A stretch of 62,249 bases of DNA from the NCBI GenBank assembly GCA_018065615.1, contig JAGHSY010000061.1:1-62249 (forward strand). Direction: 5' to 3'. Shown here one piece after another: positions 1 through 62,249 of this stretch. The DNA comes from Candidatus Colenecus caballi. Its GTDB lineage: Bacteria > Bacteroidota > Bacteroidia > Bacteroidales > Bacteroidaceae. Below the pieces are notes generated by a model. That model was not told the origin of the DNA. It worked only from the letters and a program-made list of their open reading frames with translations, and made no database searches. How positions within the stretch are numbered: position 1 is the first letter of the stretch; each line of letters opens with the position of its first letter. Position numbers and translations under genes: made by a program.

Positions 1-66
1 GTTGATACCCCGAATCATTACATGGTACACGCCATTCGGGGATTTTTCACGGTTCTTTCTGCTCAT
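1..66 (-). CDS. REP-associated tyrosine transposase (RAYT), N-terminal fragment at the window edge
   Basis: The first 22 codons of a leftward gene are present, starting at the ATG at 66-64. They read MSRKNREKSPNGVYHV followed by MIRGIN. The YHVMxRGIN block is the hallmark N-terminus of Y1/HUH transposases of the IS200-like RAYT group. Family knowledge: RAYTs are single-copy domesticated transposases that act on REP palindromes, usually found beside the gene. Here a REP-like palindrome lies at 127-187, just upstream. The next upstream ATG in the leader is followed at once by a stop, which supports the chosen start. A TATCTTTG element at 92-99 on the same strand is a fitting promoter. The HUH and catalytic Tyr motifs lie outside the window, so the call rests on a short but distinctive stretch. 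Confidence 0.72.
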   Translation of the reverse strand, partial: MSRKNREKSPNGVYHVMIRGIN

Positions 67-91
67 AGTAACATGGTTAAATTTTCATCGG

Positions 92-99
92 CAAAGATA
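92..99 (-). promoter_or_regulatory. -7 element of the RAYT gene
   Basis: Reads TATCTTTG on the minus strand, a match to the Bacteroidetes TAnnTTTG -7 consensus. It lies 25 bases before the RAYT start codon. No clear -33 TTG was found at the usual spacing. Confidence 0.5.
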
Positions 100-126
100 G
101 AAGTATTTTCCAAATGCGCAAATGAG

Positions 127-187
127 CAATGGGGACAGTCCCTGCGCAACGGGGACAGTCCCCGTTGCGCAGGGACTGTCCCCATTG
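127..187. repeat. REP-like palindrome, copy A (tripartite)
   Basis: Two 24-base arms, 127-150 and 164-187, are perfect reverse complements (CAATGGGGACAGTCCCTG plus CGCAAC and its complement). Between them lies GGGGACAGTCCCC, itself nearly palindromic. The GGGACAGTCCC core and TGCGCA joints recur in the copies at 1474, 23963, 26367 and 28531. It lies between the RAYT gene and the amidase gene, immediately upstream of the amidase promoter. Confidence 0.9.
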
Positions 188-200
188 TGCAAAAAAAACG

Positions 201-208
201 TAACTTTG
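201..208 (+). promoter_or_regulatory. -7 element of the amidase gene
   Basis: TAACTTTG matches TAnnTTTG. Only eight bases separate it from the ATG at 217, so the transcript would have almost no leader. Confidence 0.5.
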
Positions 209-216
209 CGGGCAAT

Positions 217-960
217 ATGAGAATAGCACTGGTACAGAACGCCCCGGAGTTGGGAAAGTCCGATGAGAACCTGCGGAAGCTGGATGCGCTGATTGGCAGC
301 GGATGTGCATCGGACATATATGTCATGCCTGAAATGTTCGCGACCGGACAAAGCAATGAACCGGCCGGAATTGCCGAAAGCATGGACGGGAATGTCATTG
401 CGTGGATGAAGGACAAGGCGCGCATGCTTGACGCTGCCGTAGTCGGAAGCCTGCCCGTTCTGGAAGGCGGGAAGTATTGGAACCGCCTTTGCTTTGTAAT
501 GCCGGATGGCAGCGTGACATGCTATGACAAGCGTCACCTGTTTACATACGCGGGTGAAGCCCAGCACTTCACGCGCGGCACGGACCGCGTCGTGGTCTCG
601 TTCCGTGGCCTTAGAATCCTGCTGCAGGTATGCTATGACCTGCGTTTCCCGGTGTTCAGCCGCAATCATGACGACTACGACGCCGTCATCTACATAGCCG
701 CATGGCCGGAAAAGCGCGTATTCGCGTGGGACACTCTGCTGCGGGCACGCGCCCTTGAGAACCAGTGCTTTGCCATCGGAGTGAACCGCTGCGGAACCGA
801 CCAGTTCGGCTTTTACCCCGGTCACAGCGCCATCATCGGACCTTACGGAGACACGCTTGTTGAGACCGATGAAAACGCGCAGATGGTCTTTCACGACCTG
901 GATCTTGACCTGCTGGCCCGTTTCCGTGCCAAATTCCCTGTGCTTCAGGATGCTGACTGA
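217..960 (+). CDS. Omega-amidase / nitrilase-family amidohydrolase (YafV-like)
   Basis: A 247-residue carbon-nitrogen hydrolase. The nitrilase triad is visible: Glu39 (in MPEMFATG), Lys105 (in YDKRHLF) and Cys139 (in QVCYDLRFP). The YDLRFP and YDKRHLF contexts fit the omega-amidase branch (YafV/Nit2), which deaminates alpha-ketoglutaramate and similar amides in metabolite repair. The start at 217 gives the canonical N-terminus MRIALVQ. A longer reading frame exists upstream, but it runs through the palindromic repeat and the promoter, so it is rejected. A Nudix hydrolase follows 17 bases downstream, so the two are probably co-transcribed. Confidence 0.85.
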   Translation: MRIALVQNAPELGKSDENLRKLDALIGSGCASDIYVMPEMFATGQSNEPAGIAESMDGNVIAWMKDKARMLDAAVVGSLPVLEGGKYWNRLCFVMPDGSVTCYDKRHLFTYAGEAQHFTRGTDRVVVSFRGLRILLQVCYDLRFPVFSRNHDDYDAVIYIAAWPEKRVFAWDTLLRARALENQCFAIGVNRCGTDQFGFYPGHSAIIGPYGDTLVETDENAQMVFHDLDLDLLARFRAKFPVLQDAD

Positions 961-977
961 ACAACTTTTACACCATC

Positions 978-1484
978 ATGAACAAGGACAACGAAAACGA
1001 ACTGTTTCCCGTGGTCGATGAGGACGGGAATGTGACCGGCAGCATTCTGCGCGGTCAGGCACATGACGGACGCAAGGTACTGCACCCGGTCATCCACCTG
1101 CACCTTTTCAATTCCAAGGGAGAACTGTACCTGCAGCGCCGTCCTGACTGGAAGCCCATACAGCCCGGCAAATGGGACACCGCATGCGGCGGCCACATCG
1201 GATTTGGAGAAAGCGTGGAACAGGCATTTGAACGTGAGGTGCGTGAGGAGCTGGGCATAACCGTCCCCTCCCCCGAATCACTGGGCCGTTACGTATTTGA
1301 AAGCAAGGTCGAAAAGGAACTTGTCTATGTTTTCCGCGCAGTCTATGACGGGCCTGTCAACCCCAGCGCCGATGAACTTGACGGCGGCCGTTTCTGGTCG
1401 ATGCAAGAAATAAAGGACGCCCTTGGAAAGAGCGTCCTTACACCGAATTTCGAATCCGAATTCCAGAAATTCCTTGCACAATAG
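978..1484 (+). CDS. Nudix hydrolase, IPP-isomerase-like subgroup
   Basis: A 168-residue protein with a complete Nudix box at residues 72-94, GHIGFGE through REVREELGI, matching GX5EX7REUXEEXGU. The N-terminal half (VVDEDGNVTGSILR, then LQRRPDWKPIQPGKWDTACGG) resembles the YfcD/IPP-isomerase-like Nudix group. The substrate cannot be told; a nucleoside-diphosphate derivative or similar pyrophosphate is likely. The last residues, Ala-Gln-stop, are encoded by the outer edge of a repeat copy (GCACAATAG), so the repeat supplies the stop codon. Confidence 0.88.
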   Translation: MNKDNENELFPVVDEDGNVTGSILRGQAHDGRKVLHPVIHLHLFNSKGELYLQRRPDWKPIQPGKWDTACGGHIGFGESVEQAFEREVREELGITVPSPESLGRYVFESKVEKELVYVFRAVYDGPVNPSADELDGGRFWSMQEIKDALGKSVLTPNFESEFQKFLAQ

Positions 1485-1500
1485 GGACAGTCCCTGTTGC
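1474..1500. repeat. REP-like palindrome, copy B (single unit)
   Basis: TTGCACAATAGGGACAG followed by TCCCTGTTGC, one GGGACAGTCCC hairpin. It fills the whole space between two convergent genes. Its left part contains the TAG stop of the Nudix gene, and it abuts the stop of the esterase at 1501-1503. Confidence 0.85.
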
Positions 1501-3042
1501 TCACTTGAGCGAGCCGGTTGCCCGGAAAGCGTCCAGTTTCTTGAAGCAGTGGGCGTCAATTATCTCTGACAGCTCGCGGTCAAAGTTGTTGCGGACCTGG
1601 ATTTCGGGACCGAACATGAAACACTCGCCATTCTGAGCGGTGTACGGGTGCCAGGTGGGCAGGCCCTCAACGTTCGGGTCACCGGTGTGTGCAAAGTTGG
1701 CCCACGACTGGGCCATGCGGTCTGCCAGCCTCAAGTCCGATTCAGACGGATTGGGAAGGTCACGTCCGGCCAGATGCAGGGTGTTGAAACAGAAGTTCAG
1801 CTCCGCACCATGGGCTGAGATATGCGTTGACGGAGATTTCCAGGTGAACATGTAGTTATATACCGGAGCCGGCTTTGTTGCAGACACGGCATCGGCGCAG
1901 ATGATTGTCTTGGGACGGAACATCATGTCAACTGAAGGCAGGTCCTGGGGGATGAAATCAGGCCATGCCTTGGCAAATGCCTCAGCGTATGCATCGGTGT
2001 CATCTTCAAATGTAGCCTTAACGTTTGCCTTGGCTTCATCGAGAGTCATCTGGCGGTTGTAAGAACCGCGCTGCAGTTCGTTGAAAGTGGTGCCTATGAC
2101 CAGCGGAATGTCATCGGATATGCTGGCAAAATCGGGCTGGAAGGGCTGCTGAAGGAGGACTTCGCCGTCCGGAGTCGGGCCGAATCCCCACATCATGGGA
2201 GTGCCGGGAGTGCGGGTGCCGATGCTTGCGGCAAGGGCACGCTGGCCGGCCTGGTACAGTTTGTCATACGGCACGTCCTTAATGCGGTCCGGCTCATTAT
2301 GAGGAATGCCCAGCTGGTCCAGAACGGCCAGACCCAGTTCTTCTGTCATGGGCTTGGTGTTGATGTTCAGAATGGTGCCGCTCATGATTATCGCCTTGTG
2401 GAACAGGCCCTTGGCCGAAGGCATGCACATAAGGGTGCCAACCTTTCCGCCACCGCCGGACTCTCCGAAAATTGTCACGTTGTCCGGGTCACCGCCAAAC
2501 TTTTCAATGTTGTCACGAACCCACTCAAGAGCCCTGACAGCATCCATCATGCCTACGTTGCCCGAATACTTGTACTTGGGGTCACCGGTTGCTGAAAGGT
2601 CCAGGAATCCGATGATATTGAGACGGTGGTTCAGACTGACCACAACAACATCCTTCCTGCACAGTCCCATGCCGGGATTCCAGGCCGATGTGCCCGAATC
2701 GAATCCGCCGCCGTGGCACCAGAACATGACAGGCTTCTTTCCCTTTGTGTCCGTGGTCCAGACATTCAGCACGCAGCATTCCTCACTGCTTCCCGGCTGG
2801 ATGCGGCCGTTCTGAAGGGACTGAGGCCCCCACTGGGTGCAGTCCAGCACAGTGTCCCATTTCTCTACCGGAGCCGGCGGCATGCAGCGCTCGGCCTTTG
2901 CGTATGGAATACCCTTGAAGGCCATGGTGCCTTCCTCATCAAAACCACGTACCGGTCCGTTTGTCGTCTTCACCACGAAAGGATCGGCCTTGCAGCCCGC
3001 CAGCATTGCTGCGGCTAAAGCCATAATGACAAGTCTTTTCAT
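1501..3042 (-). CDS. Carboxylesterase (type B) lipoprotein
   Basis: A 513-residue alpha/beta hydrolase of the COesterase (para-nitrobenzyl esterase) family. The signal peptide ends in a lipobox, LAGC, with Cys17 as lipidation site, so it is probably a periplasm- or surface-anchored lipoprotein. The oxyanion-hole HGGGF is at 110-114, the ECCVLNVW block precedes it, and the nucleophile Ser195 sits in GESGGGG. A late SAHGAELNF stretch probably carries the catalytic His. The natural substrate is unknown; in gut Bacteroidales such proteins often deacylate plant esters. Its ATG overlaps the stop of ettA by four bases (ATGA), so it is translationally coupled to it. Confidence 0.88.
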   Translation of the reverse strand: MKRLVIMALAAAMLAGCKADPFVVKTTNGPVRGFDEEGTMAFKGIPYAKAERCMPPAPVEKWDTVLDCTQWGPQSLQNGRIQPGSSEECCVLNVWTTDTKGKKPVMFWCHGGGFDSGTSAWNPGMGLCRKDVVVVSLNHRLNIIGFLDLSATGDPKYKYSGNVGMMDAVRALEWVRDNIEKFGGDPDNVTIFGESGGGGKVGTLMCMPSAKGLFHKAIIMSGTILNINTKPMTEELGLAVLDQLGIPHNEPDRIKDVPYDKLYQAGQRALAASIGTRTPGTPMMWGFGPTPDGEVLLQQPFQPDFASISDDIPLVIGTTFNELQRGSYNRQMTLDEAKANVKATFEDDTDAYAEAFAKAWPDFIPQDLPSVDMMFRPKTIICADAVSATKPAPVYNYMFTWKSPSTHISAHGAELNFCFNTLHLAGRDLPNPSESDLRLADRMAQSWANFAHTGDPNVEGLPTWHPYTAQNGECFMFGPEIQVRNNFDRELSEIIDAHCFKKLDAFRATGSLK

Positions 3043-22600: not shown

Positions 22601-22874
22601 CCAGGTCGGCCAGAAGGTTTACATCGGACTTGACGAATACACCGTTGCCGATGTTCAGATTGTTCCGCGCCGCGGCGGTTGGGGACGTCAGCCGCAGACT
22701 CCTGCCAACCCGGATTCCGTCACTCTGACAGAGCCCCTCAAGTCCGATGTTTCCGCAGGCCAGTACCTGACCGGCAGCGGCATATCACTTGGTGCTCCTC
22801 TGACAAAGAACCACGGTGCCGGTGACGCGTTCGGCCCTTCAGTTGCAACTCCGGGCAAACCTAATGTCCAGTAA
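19614..22874 (+). CDS. Secreted GH54-type arabinofuranosidase with split lamin-tail domain
   Basis: A 1086-residue exported protein (signal peptide to about residue 26). Residues 35-345 match the GH54 alpha-L-arabinofuranosidase catalytic domain: GPCDVYAKGGTPC, STRALY, GPLYQVMR, ILYDQSGKGNHL, TGCCFDYGNAETDS, GPWIM, and LLGNGGDNSNGSAGTFYE. Cysteine spacing fits the family's disulfides: 38/48, 103/108 and the vicinal pair 198/199; 249/259 may be an extra pair in an insertion. Conserved acidic residues occur at Glu218, Glu243 and Asp325. Then comes a NEW3-like beta domain (about 385-460), a lamin-tail domain from about 480, interrupted by beta modules of the form 'GdtxixVxSxxgixxGdxixig', and more such modules to the end. 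No CBM42 and no type IX sorting domain were seen. Confidence 0.75.
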   Translation: MKKSGIVLILAAAVIAPAAIVAAQAGSGSIPQRPEGPCDVYAKGGTPCTAAHSSTRALYRDYNGPLYQVMRQSDGKTLDIGVVQPTAGDPGGYADADAQDRFCKDTYCWISILYDQSGKGNHLTQAPRGGFGGLAMGGFNNVPVADWAPITLMGHKVYGVYINAGMGLRWNDAHGTAVDDQAEGQYWVINGQHYNTGCCFDYGNAETDSRDDGDGTMETTYYGNQPSWYRGQAPGPWIMTDQENNLVGCVNPDPNDKYCADLPSITWRFVTATADGEPHHWRSMGGNAQGGDLQIMYDGIRIQNPRQSYDPMRKQGAILLGNGGDNSNGSAGTFYEAAMTAAGTFPSIETNQAVQANVVAAKYEVATLAVGAANKTSKPNMLQTFSPKSTENVAVTFVNTTGKAINDLEISLKTPKGWKAAVAGSKDKVRKIGYEVAPGQTVVVTFAVTSGRKPFNGDLQAIAKSDGNPVFTAHEKVRNVAPVRINEFRIADGSGNQTNSFIELYNAGNKAVNISDWTLTHHAVNLPYFSSVRIPAGTKLAPKGFYLLGISNSGLSVDAAKGDGTIYVRSVAGIETGHEIQIGTGKNAERRTVRSVIAPQARFNGAPTTLWQPLPEGPVITIPAGSTNIPVTSTAGFKAGDKMAIGYGSTYPAVSNSLEKYEVVTVTEVGKPGTQAWLSMDAKKGDTNIKVSSTQNITAGDRIRLDIDSEGHGIEWVTVKSVGTQSSRSTFNGPLGPNDNPGTGLELMEPLKFDHSSNMPFSVNGTGITFEPATQFDHSSNEPVLPLVYALELNRPLSKAHEINEVVLDAQVTNAGYHGDVPADLLFGGPALDASRGNMTLRNGNGLIVDAVNYGGLVDPWLAEGFHEEAGAGADGAFARVPSAPRGGFGAPAATPAAGPDLSTGRYPDGFDTDDNKLDFRAGSAMTIAAPAQAGSNNVKVTSTNGISLGQVMYLGSGESMEKVKVAVIGTAGATAIRTNAPKGETKLSVASAQGFQVGQKVYIGLDEYTVADVQIVPRRGGWGRQPQTPANPDSVTLTEPLKSDVSAGQYLTGSGISLGAPLTKNHGAGDAFGPSVATPGKPNVQ

Positions 22875-23973
22875 CAGGAACATACTCAAATGGACAATGG
22901 TGTCACTTGGCACCATTGTCCTTATTTTAAGCACCGTACTGTGCATCCATGCACTTTCCGGACACGGACTCATCGGCTGTCAGGCCGGCACCTCATGCAG
23001 CCAGGTGCTTGGCAGCCGCTGGTCCTTCCTGCTCGGTTCCATTCCGGTAAGTGCGCTGGCAATGGGCGCGTACACCGCCCTGCTTCTGTGCATTCTGTAC
23101 TTTGACCGCCTTGAGCCTGACCTGCAGCGCTTTACCGGCCGCATCATGCTGGTCATAGCCGGCGCAGTCTTCGGCAGCGCCATCTGGTTCATCCGCCTGC
23201 AGAAAAGCATGATACACGCCTTCTGCCCCTACTGCATGACAGCCCACTTCCTGGGCATGGTCCTGGCCCTGCTGGTCTTCATCTGGTGCATACGGCGCGG
23301 CGTCACACTGCGTGCCCTGCACTTCGGCATCGGACTTGTTCTGGCAATAGCATTAGCCGTGCTTCAGGCCCTGACCACGCCAAGGACGCTTTCAGAACGC
23401 GGTTTCGTGCAGGAGGAACTGCCCTCATTCACCACTTCAGAACTTCCGGTCATTGGCAAGTCCGATGCCCCCACGGTCATAACCCTGCTCTTTGACTGGC
23501 AATGCTCGCACTGCCGCCACATTCACCTTATGCTGCCCGATGTGGTACGTGAACTGCATGACAGCGTGGCTTTCATCTGCTGTCCTGTTTCGCTGAGCCA
23601 GGAGTGTAACCCATACGTTCCTTACGGCACCGATCTCTTTGCCGGCTCATGCGACCTGATGCGCATGGGACTGGCCCTGTGGAGGACCGACCGCAGCGCA
23701 TTCCTTGAATATGAGACCTGGTTCCTGGGGCGTGCCCTGCCCTCTGTGGCAGAGGCCGGAGAAAAGGCCCGGGAACTTGTTCCGGACCTTGAAAGCGCCC
23801 TGCAGGACCCCTGGATTGACAGCTGCACACTGAAGGCGCTGGAACTGTTCGGCCGCACGTCCGTCAACGGCAAGGCCGCCATACCCCGCTTCATATATGG
23901 CGGCCGCTGGCTGGTCCCCGATGCCGATGACGCCCCCTCGCTGGCCGCCCTTATCCGCTCATTTGCACAATAG
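22864..23973 (+). CDS. VKOR-thioredoxin (DsbA-like) fusion
   Basis: A 369-residue membrane enzyme. The first about 190 residues are a vitamin K epoxide reductase domain with four to five helices, a loop Cys pair (LIGCQAGTSC) and the active CPYC in FCPYCMTAH. The C-terminal part is a thioredoxin-fold domain with CSHC in LFDWQCSHCRHIH. Such fusions reoxidise a disulfide-donor domain with quinone and replace DsbB/DsbA. The start at 22864 gives MSSNRNILKW and overlaps the GH54 gene by 11 bases, so the two are co-translated. The final Ala-Gln-stop is encoded by a repeat copy. Confidence 0.85.
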   Translation: MSSNRNILKWTMVSLGTIVLILSTVLCIHALSGHGLIGCQAGTSCSQVLGSRWSFLLGSIPVSALAMGAYTALLLCILYFDRLEPDLQRFTGRIMLVIAGAVFGSAIWFIRLQKSMIHAFCPYCMTAHFLGMVLALLVFIWCIRRGVTLRALHFGIGLVLAIALAVLQALTTPRTLSERGFVQEELPSFTTSELPVIGKSDAPTVITLLFDWQCSHCRHIHLMLPDVVRELHDSVAFICCPVSLSQECNPYVPYGTDLFAGSCDLMRMGLALWRTDRSAFLEYETWFLGRALPSVAEAGEKARELVPDLESALQDPWIDSCTLKALELFGRTSVNGKAAIPRFIYGGRWLVPDADDAPSLAALIRSFAQ

Positions 23974-24033
23974 GGACGCACCTTGCACAATGGGGACAGT
24001 CCCTGTTGCGCAGGGACTGTCCCCATTGCGCAA
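23963..24033. repeat. REP-like palindrome, copy C (hairpin with 18-base arms)
   Basis: An outer tag (TTGCACAATAGGGACGCACC) is followed by a strong hairpin: CAATGGGGACAGTCCCTG at 23988-24005, five-base loop, and its exact complement at 24011-24028. It fills the space between two convergent genes, supplies the TAG of the VKOR gene and abuts the stop of the next gene at 24034. It may serve as a two-way transcription stop. Confidence 0.9.
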
Positions 24034-25191
24034 TCAGCGGGTGGCCCAGGCGGGCATGTCCAGCAGTACGGAAAGATTGAATGAACCGGACGTTCCCAAT
24101 GACGGGAAATCAGTCCGGGCATAATATGCCTTCAGGCAGATATTGGTTTCAGAATAATCCCCATACTGTATAATACGGCGCAGTTTCACACTTGAAGACA
24201 ATCCTGCAATCAGTCTGTTTCCGTATATTACGCTGACCTCTGCACCTTTCCTGTCAAGATTGGTCTTTTGAGAGAAATTTGGAAATCCCCAACCGGCAAA
24301 CGGTGCAATGGCCACATATTGGCCGTCTATGACATTGAAGCCCAACTGTAACCCCATTCCCGCAGACTTGCAGTTGTAGCCGTCACGCCACAGGTATCCA
24401 TAGTCGTCATCATAGAACATGCCGGACTGCCTTATTTCACCGCCAATGGCGCAGGCCACATCCATTGCCAGCCATAACCTGCTGTAATTGAGACGAAATC
24501 CTACCTCAAAGCCATGCATCGGAGTATAGAACATGCCAACGTCACCTGAATACTTCTCAAACCGGTATCCGCCAAAAGCCCCCAGTCCCCAGCATTTCCG
24601 GCCTACATCCGGAACGGTAACGGGATTCTCCGTGACCTCATCAAGCTTCTGCCTGTAAAGGTTTTCATATCGGACTATGGCAGCCGTGTCCTGACCGTAT
24701 CCGGTCTCCATTTCATACTTTTCGACCGCGCTGTTCAACAGACTGCGGTAATAGGACTCCACTTCTTCAGGTTTGTCTGAAAACATGAGTGCATTCTGAT
24801 ATTCCCTGCGTATGACCTCAACCATGTCATATTCGGTCTGATTGAATCTTAAAGACCAGTCATTGGACAGGGTCGGATCATACCAGGACTGTTCTTTCAG
24901 TGAATACAGTTCAAGTGTGACCGGATAGTACCTTATGTTTCCCTGCTTTCCTACAGTGTGATTATGGGCCAGTCTCCATTCCAGAAACGTATGGAACCTG
25001 TTGTCCTTGTTCCCGGTATCAACATGCTTCACGGTAAAGTTGTTCCATGTGAGCGGTCCGTCATTCCAATGGTGAACAGTAACACCTCCGGCAGCGTCCG
25101 GCAAACGCTTGTCCAAAGGCGATACAGTTAAAATCTGGGCTTGAGCAAGCAATGCCTGACAGCACAGTACAGCAACAGTCAGTCTCTTCAT
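24034..25191 (-). CDS. Exported DUF922-like/barrel protein, paralogue 2
   Basis: A 385-residue protein with a signal peptide (to LLAQAQ). The N-terminal half has GPLTWNNF, a QSWYDP segment and LRFNQTEYDMVEVIRREYQ. The order resembles DUF922 putative zinc proteases, whose HEQxHF motif would fall at FNQTEY here, so the metal site looks lost. The C-terminal half is rich in beta strands (WGLGAFGGYRF, FEVGFRLNY, YVAIAPFAGWGF), consistent with an outer-membrane barrel. The start at 25191 is preferred because it gives the signal peptide and makes a four-base ATGA overlap with the upstream paralogue. Confidence 0.5.
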   Translation of the reverse strand: MKRLTVAVLCCQALLAQAQILTVSPLDKRLPDAAGGVTVHHWNDGPLTWNNFTVKHVDTGNKDNRFHTFLEWRLAHNHTVGKQGNIRYYPVTLELYSLKEQSWYDPTLSNDWSLRFNQTEYDMVEVIRREYQNALMFSDKPEEVESYYRSLLNSAVEKYEMETGYGQDTAAIVRYENLYRQKLDEVTENPVTVPDVGRKCWGLGAFGGYRFEKYSGDVGMFYTPMHGFEVGFRLNYSRLWLAMDVACAIGGEIRQSGMFYDDDYGYLWRDGYNCKSAGMGLQLGFNVIDGQYVAIAPFAGWGFPNFSQKTNLDRKGAEVSVIYGNRLIAGLSSSVKLRRIIQYGDYSETNICLKAYYARTDFPSLGTSGSFNLSVLLDMPAWATR

Positions 25192-26333
25192 AACGCCTGC
25201 CTTTTCAAATTCAAACTCCAAGCCTCAAATCCACAAGCAAGTCCGATGTTGAATGCCCAGACATTGCCCAAAGTGCTGAAACTGCCGTATGAACAGCTTG
25301 CTGTCAGTCTGAGGAAAAAGTCAGTCGTGTCCGTATTGGAAATCCATTGCCTTATTTTCCAGTCCGTCATTACACCGGCTGCAAGTCTCAGCGCTTTTAT
25401 TTCACTGGTTATTTCATTATTGTTCTTTTCATCAGTGAGCCCTGTTTTCTGGTTGAAGAACTGGGTACCAATGCCTGCAAAAGGAGTCAGTTTCCAATAT
25501 TGGCGGTCCAGAACCAGATACCCCAGATTCAGACAGACAGCGCCGCCACGGCAGTCCTTTCCTTTTTCCCAACTGTAGGAATTCTTGCTGTCAAAATGGA
25601 AACCGTCCGTCATGACCTTTCCGCCACCACCTACGCTTATTCCAAAATCAAATGACAGCTTACCGCTATACAGGTCCAGACCCGCATTGAAACACTCAAA
25701 CGGTCCGATGCTTTCCGATACGGGTCCGAAGAGCTGCTGATGCTCATATCCGATGAACAGCCCCACGCCGAACGTGTTCTTCTCTATTGAAGGCGGTGCG
25801 GGCTCGTTGATCCCTGTAGCGGAAAGTTCCAATGCGGTCCGTTTCTCATACTGGGCTATTACTGCCGTATCTGTTCCCTTTCCCGTTTCCTGCTCAAGCG
25901 CCTCATAACGGCTGTCCAGCTGCCGCTGGAAATAATCATAATCCGGTCTGTTCCTGTTTCCGGCATTCAGGGCATTCTGATACTGCCGGCAAATTATTTC
26001 AGCAATGTCAAACTCCAGCTGATGGTACCGCAAGGTCACATCATCGGCCCTGTCCGGATCATACCAGGACAGCAGCCTGTCAACAGACAGATTCACACTA
26101 CGGTAAAAGAAACGGACGTTGCCCTTGCGGACCGGTTCGGTTTCGACATTGACCATCCAGTCCAAATCGGACTTGTCTTCTACTGAAGGCGGCAGGTGTC
26201 GGACCTGAAAGTCATTCCATGTGAGCGGACCTTCACTCCAAAGTCTCCTGCTGTCTTCCATGGACGGAAAGTCCTGAGCCATGCAGGGATACGCAGACAT
26301 GGCAATCAAAAACAGTTGTATAAGTTTTTTCAT
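25188..26333 (-). CDS. Exported DUF922-like/barrel protein, paralogue 1
   Basis: A 381-residue protein with signal peptide (MKKLIQLFLIAMSAYPCMAQ). It has the same layout as the following gene: EGPLTWNDFQVRHL, LSWYDP, LRYHQLEFDIAEIICRQYQNAL and then a strand-rich C-terminal half (FGVGLFIGYEHQQ, CLNLGYLVLDRQYWKLTPFAGIGTQFF). The DUF922-type HExxH-like site reads YHQLEF, so catalysis is doubtful. The two genes are tandem duplicates that have diverged well below 50 percent identity by eye. A TATATTTA stretch lies shortly upstream of the start as a weak -7 candidate. Confidence 0.5.
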   Translation of the reverse strand: MKKLIQLFLIAMSAYPCMAQDFPSMEDSRRLWSEGPLTWNDFQVRHLPPSVEDKSDLDWMVNVETEPVRKGNVRFFYRSVNLSVDRLLSWYDPDRADDVTLRYHQLEFDIAEIICRQYQNALNAGNRNRPDYDYFQRQLDSRYEALEQETGKGTDTAVIAQYEKRTALELSATGINEPAPPSIEKNTFGVGLFIGYEHQQLFGPVSESIGPFECFNAGLDLYSGKLSFDFGISVGGGGKVMTDGFHFDSKNSYSWEKGKDCRGGAVCLNLGYLVLDRQYWKLTPFAGIGTQFFNQKTGLTDEKNNNEITSEIKALRLAAGVMTDWKIRQWISNTDTTDFFLRLTASCSYGSFSTLGNVWAFNIGLACGFEAWSLNLKRQAL

Positions 26334-26362
26334 ACTTTAAATATAATCGGACACTAAAATAG

Positions 26363-28474
26363 TTAATTGCACAATAGGGACGCACCTTGCACAACAGGGA
26401 CAGTCCCCGTTGCGCAGGGACTGTCCCTGTTGCGCACCAGTCTGACTGGGAACGCCATATCGCCAGACTCTTCCAGAGTCAGACTCTTTTCTCCCCTCCA
26501 CTCGGAATAACAGGCCGCCTTGCCGGAATCTGAAACGTGATACATGGTCTCATCACGCCCGGCGTCTTCTAAGGAATACGGATTATCATAATAATAAAGC
26601 CATGGGTCCATACTGCCAAGAAACGGTATGAGCAGCGTATCGGACTCATGGCCGTGACTTTTGGAAGTAAAACGCACGACCGGCACAGCATCCCGAAAAT
26701 CGTGCAGAGCGACATTGCATGATGAAATAAGTTCCTGCACTTCATCCCAGGTGGGTAAGCGCCAGCCTTCAGGGACGGAAGCCAGCAGGCGCGGCAATTC
26801 GCTCCGTGTAAAATAGCCGGACTCCTCAGATCCGTATCCGGGAGAGAGTTCACCCAAGTTGACATCGGCCCAGAGGACACTCAGTCCAAGGTCTACCGGA
26901 TGTATTTCCTGCGGGATTACCGTGACGCGGCATCGGGCTTCACGGCCGCCTGCACCTGCAATTATTTCACAAGTGCCGGCAGACAACGCTTTTATCACGC
27001 CGTTCACATCGGCTATGGCAATGCTCTCATCGGAAGAACTCCAGGAGAACATGTCATTCAGGCAGATTCTAGAAGGAATGACTTTGGCCGTTACACAGGT
27101 TTTCGTGCCTGAAAGCATGACAAGGTCCGATGTGTCCATGACGACTGTTTCAAAATCGTTTTCCTGCAGGGCGGTTACAGCGCGCACGGGAACGCCCAGG
27201 TATCTGGTATCGGAATTGGAAAAAAGAGAACATTTATTCAGGTTCAGGCAGGCTCCGTCCTCGGATGTCAGGATACGGCACATCTCTCCGCGTCCGGCAG
27301 GACCGTTACCGTCCATGACACCCGAAGCGGGAAAGAATACGCTGCGGTCTTCAAATCCGGGCACCATGCTGACAAGCCGAATGCCCGGTATGCCGCACAA
27401 GGTGTCAGCAACGGCATCACATGCGTCAGCCAGCAGTTCACATTCCATGCGCGCAGGCATGCGCCACTCCGGCCCCCACGCCACCCTTGCAATGTCATCA
27501 TCAGGCGTAAGCCTCTTGGGCCGGGACCTTCCCGTACTCCAATTGTCTGTCCTGTAATTGAATATGCCTTCCCTGCTGCCCCACATGAATGTGTTCCAGC
27601 TGTAGAAATCCTTGGTCCAGGTCTCAGACCAGACAAAGCTGTCACCCCAGTCCTGCGGCCGCTGAGCACCCACATTCATGGTGGCAATGCGGAACGGCAG
27701 GCCCAGGTCAACGCTTTCAAATATGCCGGGAAGCACTGTCACCCTGCATTTGCGGGTATGGCCGGCACACGTCACAGTTATGGTGCACCGGCCTGCAGAG
27801 CGGGCAAGCACGCTTCCATACTCCACGACAGCCACTGTGGTGTCACTTGACTCCCATGTGCACAGCGCGTCCAGAACGCGGTCCGATTCCAGTCCGATGA
27901 TTCCGTGGGCGCCCTCATGCAGGGTCATGCTCCCTGTTTTCAGCCGGAATTTCTTCACATCGGACCTGGTGACCTCTGACACGGGACGGACAGACAGCGA
28001 CAGGCTTTTGCTCTGGGGCCATATATAATGGCCGCTCCAGATCATGTACACTGCAAAACCGGAATGATTATCCGGGGAAGGTATGGGCGTCGAGCTCCAG
28101 TAGCACCCCACGTCTTCAGTCTGATGCACCCCTTCGTCGTTCTGCCAGCCTTCAAAAGGCAGGAAAATGCTGTTGCCTTTGAATCCGGGGACATGAGATG
28201 TCACAAGGTACCCGGTCACGCTGTCACTTTCAATGAATTTCCAGGTGCAGTTTGCCAGCAGTTCGCGCCATTCCTGCCAGGAGGGAGTGCGCCACGGCTC
28301 TTCCAACGGCACATCGGCCTGAAACCCGAAAAGTGTGGCGGTATCACCGCACTGCACATTAGCCGCAGCCCATTTGACTGACAGCCCAAGGTCAACCAAT
28401 ACGCGGTCATCGTCCGTCGCAGGAACAGGCGCAGCCATTAGCAGCGCCACAGCAATTGCAAAAAGTCTTTTCAT
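26363..28474 (-). CDS. FISUMP/Big2 multidomain surface protein with repeat-derived tail
   Basis: A 703-residue exported protein with a signal peptide of about 19 residues. Three FISUMP-type domains (about 25-166, 254-435, 530-680) each start with VDLGLsv and carry a helix for placing (WREWRELL, EVQELISSC). Two Big2/Ig-like domains lie between them (about 170-250 and 440-525; WESSDTTVAVV, WSSSDESIAIA). The last domain ends FPVRLVR, where such domains normally stop. The final about 22 residues (NRDSPCATGTVPVVQG and on) are translated from REP-like copy D. Probably a surface adhesion or structural protein; no enzymatic motif. Confidence 0.65.
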   Translation of the reverse strand: MKRLFAIAVALLMAAPVPATDDDRVLVDLGLSVKWAAANVQCGDTATLFGFQADVPLEEPWRTPSWQEWRELLANCTWKFIESDSVTGYLVTSHVPGFKGNSIFLPFEGWQNDEGVHQTEDVGCYWSSTPIPSPDNHSGFAVYMIWSGHYIWPQSKSLSLSVRPVSEVTRSDVKKFRLKTGSMTLHEGAHGIIGLESDRVLDALCTWESSDTTVAVVEYGSVLARSAGRCTITVTCAGHTRKCRVTVLPGIFESVDLGLPFRIATMNVGAQRPQDWGDSFVWSETWTKDFYSWNTFMWGSREGIFNYRTDNWSTGRSRPKRLTPDDDIARVAWGPEWRMPARMECELLADACDAVADTLCGIPGIRLVSMVPGFEDRSVFFPASGVMDGNGPAGRGEMCRILTSEDGACLNLNKCSLFSNSDTRYLGVPVRAVTALQENDFETVVMDTSDLVMLSGTKTCVTAKVIPSRICLNDMFSWSSSDESIAIADVNGVIKALSAGTCEIIAGAGGREARCRVTVIPQEIHPVDLGLSVLWADVNLGELSPGYGSEESGYFTRSELPRLLASVPEGWRLPTWDEVQELISSCNVALHDFRDAVPVVRFTSKSHGHESDTLLIPFLGSMDPWLYYYDNPYSLEDAGRDETMYHVSDSGKAACYSEWRGEKSLTLEESGDMAFPVRLVRNRDSPCATGTVPVVQGASLLCN
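26367..26436. repeat. REP-like palindrome, copy D
   Basis: Same tag as copy C (TTGCACAATAGGGACGCACC), followed by CAGGGACAGTCCC, TGCGCA and GGGACTGTCCCTG. It overlaps the 3' end of the FISUMP gene and is translated as its tail. Confidence 0.9.
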
Positions 28475-28530
28475 GCTGCAAAATTCGTCACTTCACCCGC
28501 TCCGCACAAGATTCAGGCGTTGCAAAAGCG

Positions 28531-28596
28531 TTGCACAACGGGGACAGTCCCTGCGCAACGGGGACAGTCCCCGTTGCGCAGGGACCGTCCCCATTG
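28531..28596. repeat. REP-like palindrome, copy E (tripartite)
   Basis: The same three-part structure as copy A (arm, central GGGGACAGTCCCC, arm) with one difference in the right arm (GGGACCGTCCCC). It lies between the FISUMP gene and the GH43 relic and marks where the relic's coding similarity ends. Confidence 0.9.
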
Positions 28597-28996
28597 ATCA
28601 AAGCGGCCGTCAATGGCGTTGTCCGGGGTCCAGCGGTCGCCCATGCAGATGAACGTGTCCTTCTTTCCGGCCACCGGAATGAAGAATGTGCTCTGTGAGT
28701 GGTAGGTCGTTTCGCTGTCCGGGTCCACACAGGGGTTGCCAATCTGTACACCTTATATATGTGTACGGCCCCGTGACCTTATCGGCCTGCGCAATGCCAA
28801 TCATGGCACCGTCATAGCCTCCGTTCTTGGGCTCAAGGTGGAACCACATGACAAACTTTTTCGTTCTGGCATTGTATATGACCTTGGGACGTTCCAGAAT
28901 GCAGCCTTTCATTATGTCCGATGCAGGGTCGTCACTGACGGCCAGCGTCCACTCATCAATATTGATTTCTTTCATAGCTCTGCACATTTCCGGCAA
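28597..28996 (-). pseudogene. GH43 (subfamily 34-like) glycosidase relic
   Basis: Two pieces of a family 43 exo-galactanase-like enzyme remain, in different frames. The first (from 28978 leftward) reads ILERPKVIYNARTKKFVMWFH and GAMIGIAQADKVTGPYTYIR. The second, in another frame from about 28742, reads GNPCVDPDSETTYHSQSTFF, then IPVAGKKDTFICMGDRW and DNAIDGRF. In intact GH43 proteins these pieces are separated by roughly 150 residues that hold catalytic sites; here they abut near 28745. The 5' part of the gene is also missing, and the 3' end runs into repeat copy E. It is a decayed gene, not an expressed enzyme. Confidence 0.75.
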
Positions 28997-29022: not shown

Positions 29023-29032
29023 CAGCCGAATG

Positions 29033-29112
29033 AAAGGGGGTGCTCCATATAAAGGAGCTGAGATTATACCCTAGGAACCTGATCCGGTCAGTACCGGCGT
29101 AGGGAGTGGATT
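29033..29112 (+). promoter_or_regulatory. TPP riboswitch (THI element)
   Basis: The conserved TPP aptamer pieces are in order: GGGGGTGCTCC, GGAGCTGAGA, TACCC, GAACCTGATCCGGT, then AGTACCGGCGTAGGGA. It lies between the promoter and the start of the TonB receptor gene. When thiamin pyrophosphate is bound it should reduce expression of the receptor-transporter pair. No clear terminator follows, so control of translation initiation is more likely than attenuation. Confidence 0.95.
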
Positions 29113-29158
29113 TCGGAACTTGCTGTATCCCTTTTCATTTTATATTATACATAACAAA

Positions 29159-61631: not shown

Positions 61632-61775
61632 CGCAGGTGCGGAAGGATTTCCACTGTCACGGTATGACACGGCGCGGCACTACAACATGACAGCCCAAGG
61701 TTTTAATGTAATTCTCAGCGCAGGTTTCAGCGTATTCTGCGCCGACAGACAAGTAGTTCACACCCCTATGCTGTT

Positions 61776-62249
61776 CAGAAGCCCTGTGGACAGAGTTGCA
61801 TTTCCAGAGTCCAGCGTCCCCAAAGCAATCCATGAACAAAAAGATGCCGTTATTTGTTCATGGAATAAGGCAACACATAAGCCATGCGTCTCAGAAGCCC
61901 TGTGAGCGGGGTGCCATTTCCTAAGTCGGTGTCACCAGAGCAATCCTTGAACATAAAAGTGCCGTTATTTGTTCATGGAAAGCGGTTACGCAGAAGCCAT
62001 GTGCCTCAGAAGCCTTGTGGACGGGGTGCTATTTCAAGAGTCGGTGCCACCCAGCAATCCTTGAACAAAAATGCACCGTTATTTGTTCATGGAATGCGGT
62101 TAAGCAGAAGCCATGTGACTCAGAAGCCTTGTAAGTGGGGTACCATTTCAAAAGTCGGTGGCACCCAGCAATCCTTGAACAAAAATGCACCGTTTTTTGT
62201 TCATGGAATACGGTTTCGCAGAAGACATGTGCCTCAGAAGCCTTGTAAG
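61776..62249. repeat. Tandem array of ~115-base units, running off the window edge
   Basis: Units begin with CAGAAGCCCTGTG or CAGAAGCCTTGT at 61776, 61892, 62007, 62121 and 62235 (spacing 116, 115, 114, 114). Each full unit has a hairpin around CCTTGAACAAA and TTTGTTCATGG with a 10-14 base loop. Units two to four also have GGTGnCACC, where the central base varies but the arms do not. No credible gene lies within. The stretch 61632-61775 before it shows nothing I can assign. Confidence 0.9.

Follow-up and report, generated by a model that had tools for sequence, protein, structure and literature searches.

TIRYT transposases were named from 26 examples (Di Nocera et al. 2013, PMC3733652), and the corresponding elements, TIRtrons, are outlined there as a Y1 gene lying between inverted repeats, many of which carry the motif GGGGWSAS, with dispersed repeat copies that are moderately abundant, occur singly, as dimers or in groups, and may overlap the 3' end of the gene. 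According to the sections of Quentin et al. (2018, PMC6006769) that deal with these enzymes, 20 of the 26 described TIRYTs fall in subclass 2.1, which corresponds to group 1 of the RAYT groups of Bertels (2017, as cited through PMC6006769) and, at 292 sequences, exceeds every other RAYT group in the comparison. Its members are described as having the motif YxxxNP and a C-terminal HTH of the HTH_23, HTH_28 or Bac_DnaA_C type, as being low in copy number and as occurring in many phyla, and the same sections state that genes of subclass 2.1 had no REP-like sequences next to them in automatic and manual searches. For Bacteroidetes, other TnpA-REP subclasses have already been published (PMC6006769). 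In REPtrons and REPINs (E. coli TnpA-REP, Pseudomonas RAYTs), as outlined in PMC2817692 and PMC6006769, the transposase is flanked by inverted palindromes that are multi-copy, intergenic and close to 3' ends. The passages on GTAG-tagged REPs in PMC3733652 add that these are often the source of the TAG that ends a flanking ORF, and place convergent REPs within 20 bp of the 3' ends.

The window, by which we mean the whole stretch of 62,249 nt analyzed here, corresponds to contig C92 of G000, an assembly of 2.25 Mb in 125 contigs that is 91% complete, and it was compared within a set of 37 genomes of the genus, G000 included, among which G019 is the sister genome. An initial annotation had read the first 66 bases (minus strand) as the start of a Y1/HUH transposase. 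They translate as MSRKNREKSPNGVYHVMIRGIN, and the leftward extension of the gene, found as an open frame at the end of contig C75, bears this reading out, with a Pfam Y1_Tnp match of 36.4 bits (cut-off 23). When aligned to an intact relative of 268 aa from the sister genome, the 22 codons of the window correspond to residues 1-22 and the C75 frame picks up at residue 26; about three codons are therefore probably absent between the two contigs. Adjacency of the two pieces is supported by the gene order in the sister genome (G019 C7:1-3700, L233), where orthologues of the genes flanking both contig ends, PTS_EIIC_2 on C75 and the carbon-nitrogen hydrolase and NUDIX genes of the window, are neighbors about 1.3 kb apart and in the same order. 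The coordinates of these and other features are given in Table 1.

The transposase has an HUH motif and the class-2 Y-motif YxxxNP, and the residues concerned (N67/H68/H70 and Y127/N131/P132) are invariant in all 25 aligned proteins, including the G000 fragment. Its relatives are 263-285 aa long, and an HTH-like C-terminus was detected among 43 of them at E values up to 1 (HTH_23 in 10, HTH_28 in 6, best 3.4e-06); the G000 fragment and the G019 relative gave no HTH match of their own at E 0.05, and their HTH-like region is placed by alignment alone. The sole match of a profile search against the PDB (E 0.01) was TnpA-REP (4er8, E 9.2e-06), the NCBIfam model REP_Tyr_transpos (NF047646) scored 60.8 and 53.8 bits, under its curated cut-off of 80, and a PHROGs search produced no match. 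One group-1 gene was found in the 91%-complete G000 assembly. The sister genome has two, both on C50 and 63-64% identical to that of G000, and the next-best identity among the 37 genomes is 43%. Matches at E 1e-5 occur in 24 of the 37 genomes, and a group-1 gene was counted by bit score in 22. A locus identical to that of the G019 transposase is present in a horse-fecal Bacteroidaceae MAG (JAKSIS010000054.1), and the best 80 of at least 554 related loci, from which records very close to the window's genome may be absent, are mostly from Prevotella, other Bacteroidales and Bacillota, many of them from the herbivore gut. Two distant Y1-like genes of about 314-330 aa are also present in G000 (C5:6791-6937, which scores under the Pfam cut-off, and C47:13976-14299), with relatives in several members of the genus.

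Table 1. Coordinates of the transposase gene, repeat elements and adjoining features (window positions unless a contig is named).
Feature	Position	Strand	Remarks
Y1/HUH transposase (classed as TIRYT, RAYT group 1), first 22 codons	1..66	(-)	Translation given in the text
Transposase remainder, 246 codons + stop	G000:C75:12772-13512	(-)	Open frame at C75 contig end
Element 1, repeat upstream of transposase, three cores	123..191		Perfect 61-nt palindrome at 127-187
Carbon-nitrogen hydrolase (nitrilase family)	217..960	(+)	Adjoins transposase slot; G019 orthologue next to GH10 gene
Element 2, one unit of 29 bp, with convergent genes on either side	1475..1503		Both gene stops inside
Element 3, degenerate unit (GGGACGCACC) and two exact cores	23964..24032		Provides TAG stop of ORF 22816-23973
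Segment of 2.3 kb separating elements 3 and 4, two ORFs	24033..26367		Absent from syntenic G019 stretch
Element 4, same orientation as element 3	26368..26436		Read through by ORF 26363-28474 (-)
Element 5, three cores	28532..28600		Core sites GGGACAGTCCC (two) and GGGACCGTCCC (one)

The initial annotation had also described a palindrome just upstream of the gene and four further members of the same repeat, and all five are present in the window (elements 1-5). The core that it reported is real, but the repeat unit proved larger: it comprises 20 bp, TGCRCAAYRGGGACAGTCCC, with variants that end in GGGACGGTCCT or GGGACGCACCT, and the element ends read TGNNCA rather than just TGCGCA. Units stand in tandem or head-to-head; head-to-tail runs close with an inverted half-unit, giving elements of 29, ~49 and ~69 bp for one, two and three units, with a GGGGAC-type core and CAA joints. 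The palindrome of element 1 has two 30-nt arms that are 100% complementary around a 1-nt spacer and, as single-stranded DNA, the element has a predicted folding energy of -42.1 kcal/mol, against a shuffled mean of -11.4 (z -13.9); element 2 folds weakly (z -2.1; 10 of 200 shuffles were as stable). Element 2 provides both the TAG stop (1482-1484) of the NUDIX gene and the TGA stop (1501-1503) of the carboxylesterase gene. The ORF that reads through element 4 specifies a Big_2-containing protein of 703 aa, the final residues of which are encoded in frame by the element, and the two ORFs of the 2.3-kb segment had no Pfam match at E 0.001. Core sites with at most one mismatch number 17 in the window, against 1.81 expected, and none of 100 shuffles reached 17.

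Across the whole G000 genome there are 90 exact GGGACNGTCCC sites, compared with one for the reversed control pattern, and the elements are dispersed at about 50 loci. Exact cores form 51 clusters in 40 loci covering the other sites, C75 and the window (a count that leaves out the site C119:48832), and 48 of these have a recognizable joint; the other three (C45:15998, C46:118 and C104:8142) may be chance occurrences or decayed copies. The transposase gene itself has repeats on both sides, namely element 1 upstream and, downstream, two exact cores and a degenerate unit (C75:12706-12774) whose minus-strand start coincides with the TGA stop of the gene itself.

In our judgment, the window probably starts inside a TIRtron with cognate repeats, whose transposase would have built the element population by nicking and rejoining the unit. 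Most likely, the enzyme would recognize the folded unit (half-unit TGNNCAAYRGGGAC) on single-stranded DNA, and its catalytic tyrosine would nick the unit, which would then be rejoined elsewhere or into tandem arrays. Repetition of these steps would yield some 50 elements made of 20-bp units, with the survivors lying mostly at gene 3' ends, where their first three bases (TGA) would often serve as the host stop codon.

The placement of the elements was examined at 45 half-unit clusters, of which 21 lie between convergent genes, 13 between tandem genes and one between divergent genes (10 were unclassified). Crude gene calls (at least 100 codons) gave 63 gene ends that face an element; the stop falls on the first three bases of the element in 21 of these, and 47 are no more than 12 nt away, while in a random intergenic control about 20% of 721 draws lay within 15 nt. 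Among outer ends reading TGA, 21 of 27 are the stop of a host ORF of at least 80 codons, compared with 57 of 695 background TGAs (those outside long ORFs and elements). The corresponding figure for the sister genome, 11 of 14, is only partly independent, since the G019 stretches were chosen around that genome's own elements and several sites are common to both genomes. TGANCA marks 27 of 91 outer ends but only 2 of 47 inner joints, and four elements provide TGA stops for both of the convergent genes between which they lie. The third and fourth bases of the outer ends are variable and so may be derived from the target, with a putative cut at TGNN^CAA. This stop-codon habit is shared with the classical REPs, as the passages of PMC3733652 cited above report likewise for GTAG-tagged copies.

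The number of convergent sites, the closeness of the facing gene ends and the four double stops would also be accounted for if the elements, whatever spread them, were kept by selection as shared bidirectional stops or terminators between convergent genes. A terminator search of window positions 1-2000 found no terminator-like match at elements 1 and 2, however, and purging of harmful insertions would likewise leave elements near gene ends. Selection of this kind also leaves the cognate transposase unexplained, and we consider it unlikely.

That the transposase and the repeat belong together is indicated by the loci of its relatives, in which different transposases carry different palindromes; besides the G000 unit there are TGACGCAAAGGGGTC-type and GGGGACGGTTCT-type units, each with its own transposase. 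Of 27 loci of the genus, 25 have a GGGGAC-type motif no more than 80 nt from the stop codon, against 4 with one at 150-240 nt downstream. In a matched-flank test, the upstream flank of each gene was scored for inverted-repeat matches with its own downstream flank and with those of up to 12 mismatched partners. Among the 78 named loci tested (the best 80 of at least 554, less two with short flanks), 60 exceeded the 99th percentile of mismatched pairs and 18 failed. Pre-filtering this list to 54 loci gave 49 passes, which is not a fair count given the pre-filtering; 60 of 78 is the fair figure. Within the genus, the first form of the test gave only 4 of 27 loci at the 99% level, because near-identical families had inflated the mismatched set. 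When it was repeated without four of the 27 loci (three near-duplicates and one at a contig end) and without mismatched pairs of at least 70% protein identity, 18 of 23 distinct loci passed and 5 failed; the named and genus sets overlap, with several genus loci recurring among the named ones. Divergence of genes and divergence of flanks are weakly correlated (rho 0.11, with 6 of 1000 permutations as high). Bracketing at the transposase locus proves little alone, since other genes also sit between elements (a GH10 gene in G019 and an ABC-transporter gene in G000). The initial annotation had linked gene and repeat by proximity; that link holds, on a basis that now goes beyond proximity in the matched flanks of the named loci. 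Gene and repeat form a genuine pair, with good support for the link between them, and we infer that the repeat is spread by this transposase.

The full half-unit, TGNNCAAYRGGGACNG, occurs in 136 copies in G000, 56 in G019 and 0-2 in each of the other 35 genomes, and G019 is the only other genome of the 37 with transposases that reach 63% identity to that of G000. This co-occurrence of full unit and close transposase is strong, yet it comes from two sister genomes. The G019 transposase genes themselves carry slightly different units (TGTCTAATRGGGAC, and a tandem array of TGCACACCGGGGCCAGACCC). For the core alone, the median copy number is 10.5 in the 22 genomes counted as having a group-1 gene and 2 in the 15 others (Mann-Whitney p 0.004, uncorrected for relatedness). 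Three of those 15 (G006, G028 and G034) hold 60, 58 and 48 cores without a convincing group-1 gene; an alignment search for the transposase at E 0.01 left G006 and G034 without a match and scored just 17 bits in G028. Their joints differ (TGCAATTG, TGATACAATTG, GACCCAAAA and others), and the G000 joint was seen at none of the 30 loci read out of 166 sites. The 11-bp core is thus non-specific, GGGACAGTCCC being common to several repeat types, and its copy number was rejected as a test of linkage. The expectation that the repeat should be rarer in relatives that lack the gene partly fails for the core, in view of these three genomes, and is borne out for the full unit.

Comparison of G000 with the sister genome showed both empty and filled sites. 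At C114:56027, the gene end is conserved in the G019 orthologue, with TAA in place of TGA and without the element, and both flanks align. At C114:62784 (TAA for TGA) and C80:6083 (TGA in both) the G019 gene end is homologous and has no element, with one flank aligning. Two further sites, C80:1628 and C114:68432, are filled in both genomes and differ in unit number or sequence. Fifteen G000 sites could be compared with an aligned G019 interval, which held a core in 12 cases, none in one and was ambiguous in two. Their G019 stretches had mostly been picked around G019 elements, so that shared sites are over-represented, whereas the three missing sites had been picked by G000 elements. Recent movement is thinly documented, as most of the compared G000 sites are filled in G019 too, and a scan of the collected loci for empty/filled pairs gave two matches, one of them convincing (L098/L099). 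Beside one element in each of L067 and L087, 0.6-0.7 kb of sequence is found only in G000, without a second element. In other genomes of the set, a 592-bp segment (L033 2469-3060 versus L025) is inverted between G024 and G008, with palindromic repeats on both sides in G024.

Larger differences lie between elements. Window positions 24033-26366 are missing in G019, where one element remains, and on C37 the elements of G000 enclose 2.4 kb carrying an ABC-transporter gene, where G019 has one element array. Starting at element 4, positions 26367-28947 are 95% identical to G019 (with one ~430-bp insertion in G019) while the surroundings are 79% and 74% identical, and this is likely a recombination tract. 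Most strikingly, the slot that holds the transposase in G000 is occupied in G019 by a gene for a GH10 xylanase (Pfam, 293.9 bits), the two elements and the outer genes being the same; no GH10 gene was found in the G000 stretches examined, which cover part of the genome. Movement of the transposase as a unit into a fresh site was considered and is unsupported, as the G019 genes lie elsewhere, on C50, and the two elements of the slot are present in G019 without the gene.

The exchanged slot and the two missing segments are what would be seen if homologous recombination spread and maintained the elements, and the transposase were a passenger, enclosed by two of them as any other gene might be. 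A passenger would not explain why genes of other species carry matching repeats of their own (60 of 78 loci, from the best 80 of at least 554), the full unit tracks the transposase clade, and recombination alone creates no element at an empty site such as C114:56027; we consider this alternative unlikely, too. A further idea, which we hold to be doubtful, is that the elements act as genome-wide docking sites, at which the transposase, or recombination at the unit, swaps whole genes between two elements. If so, the same slot could hold either transposase or xylanase, and segments could come and go, each capped by an element stop, in which case Bacteroidales of the herbivore gut would be using RAYT-group-1 repeats in the manner of an integron.

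Nicking and rejoining by a cognate transposase remains the preferred reading, and YxxxNP, the GGGGAC inverted repeats and the HTH-like C-terminus of relatives class the enzyme, on motif evidence, as a TIRYT of a TIRtron, RAYT group 1 (subclass 2.1). The gene sits between inverted repeats with a GGGGWSAS-type motif; GGGGACAG fits that consensus, and the GGGGACGG of several relatives does not. Initially the gene had been likened to the RAYT-REP pairs of enterobacteria and pseudomonads, a comparison that must be given up for the TIRYT kind with a GGGGAC core. A classical pair, in which a RAYT of group 2/3 (subclass 2.2/2.5) goes with GTAG-tagged REP hairpins, is highly improbable and largely refuted by the missing tag (GT[AG]G in the 17-nt feet of none of 51 elements, against 6.3 expected by background), as well as by the GGGGAC cores with CAA joints, the length and HTH-like C-terminus of the relatives and the sub-threshold REP_Tyr_transpos score, although the enzyme belongs to the same superfamily with its YxxxNP motif, and the repeats cluster, sit at gene 3' ends and provide stops as described for GTAG REPs in PMC3733652.

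Common to the present system and REPtrons are the inverted palindromes flanking the transposase, their many copies near gene ends, and a single gene (one of group 1) accompanied by many dispersed repeats (90 cores); the lack of a GTAG tag, the different core and the HTH-like extension seen in relatives set it apart. With IS200/IS605 elements it shares the HUH/Y1 catalytic core and hairpin DNA, but YxxxNP is not the class 1 motif, there is no sign of the gene moving as a unit, and in place of the multiple near-identical gene copies of such elements G000 has one group-1 copy. Relative to the TIRtrons as outlined in PMC3733652, the differences here are the Bacteroidales genus, the modular 20-bp unit and the TGA at the element end that serves as a host stop, and additions to that outline are the unit specificity tested against 35 relatives and the comparison of sites with a sister genome. 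Relative to subclass 2.1 as presented in PMC6006769, dispersed palindromic cognate repeats are plain here.

The kind of system is therefore already known, and what is new is the resolution: the unit, its specificity, the use of stop codons in Bacteroidales and the exchanged slot. Cognate repeats are displayed by most of the 78 named loci (from the best 80 of at least 554) and by one genus, where the survey sections of PMC6006769 report none beside group 1, and two sister genomes supply the unit specificity, the missing sites, the stop-codon placement and the slot with swapped genes. Within the limited collection of papers searched, TIRYTs and TIRtrons were named in PMC3733652 and PMC6006769 only, and nothing joined palindromic repeats, stop codons, IS200 and Prevotella. 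Whether group-1 RAYTs mobilize their repeats can now be put to a direct test, for which one protein and a single 29-nt unit suffice.

The sole match of an Rfam search was a TPP riboswitch (RF00059, 64.4 bits) at window positions 29026-29122 on the plus strand. It lies directly upstream of a 732-aa ORF at 29120, which we take to encode an outer-membrane receptor. At the right end of the window (61768-62249), a 114-bp unit forms a tandem array of 3.7 copies that reaches the contig end, and in every copy an inverted repeat surrounds TTGTTCATGGA.
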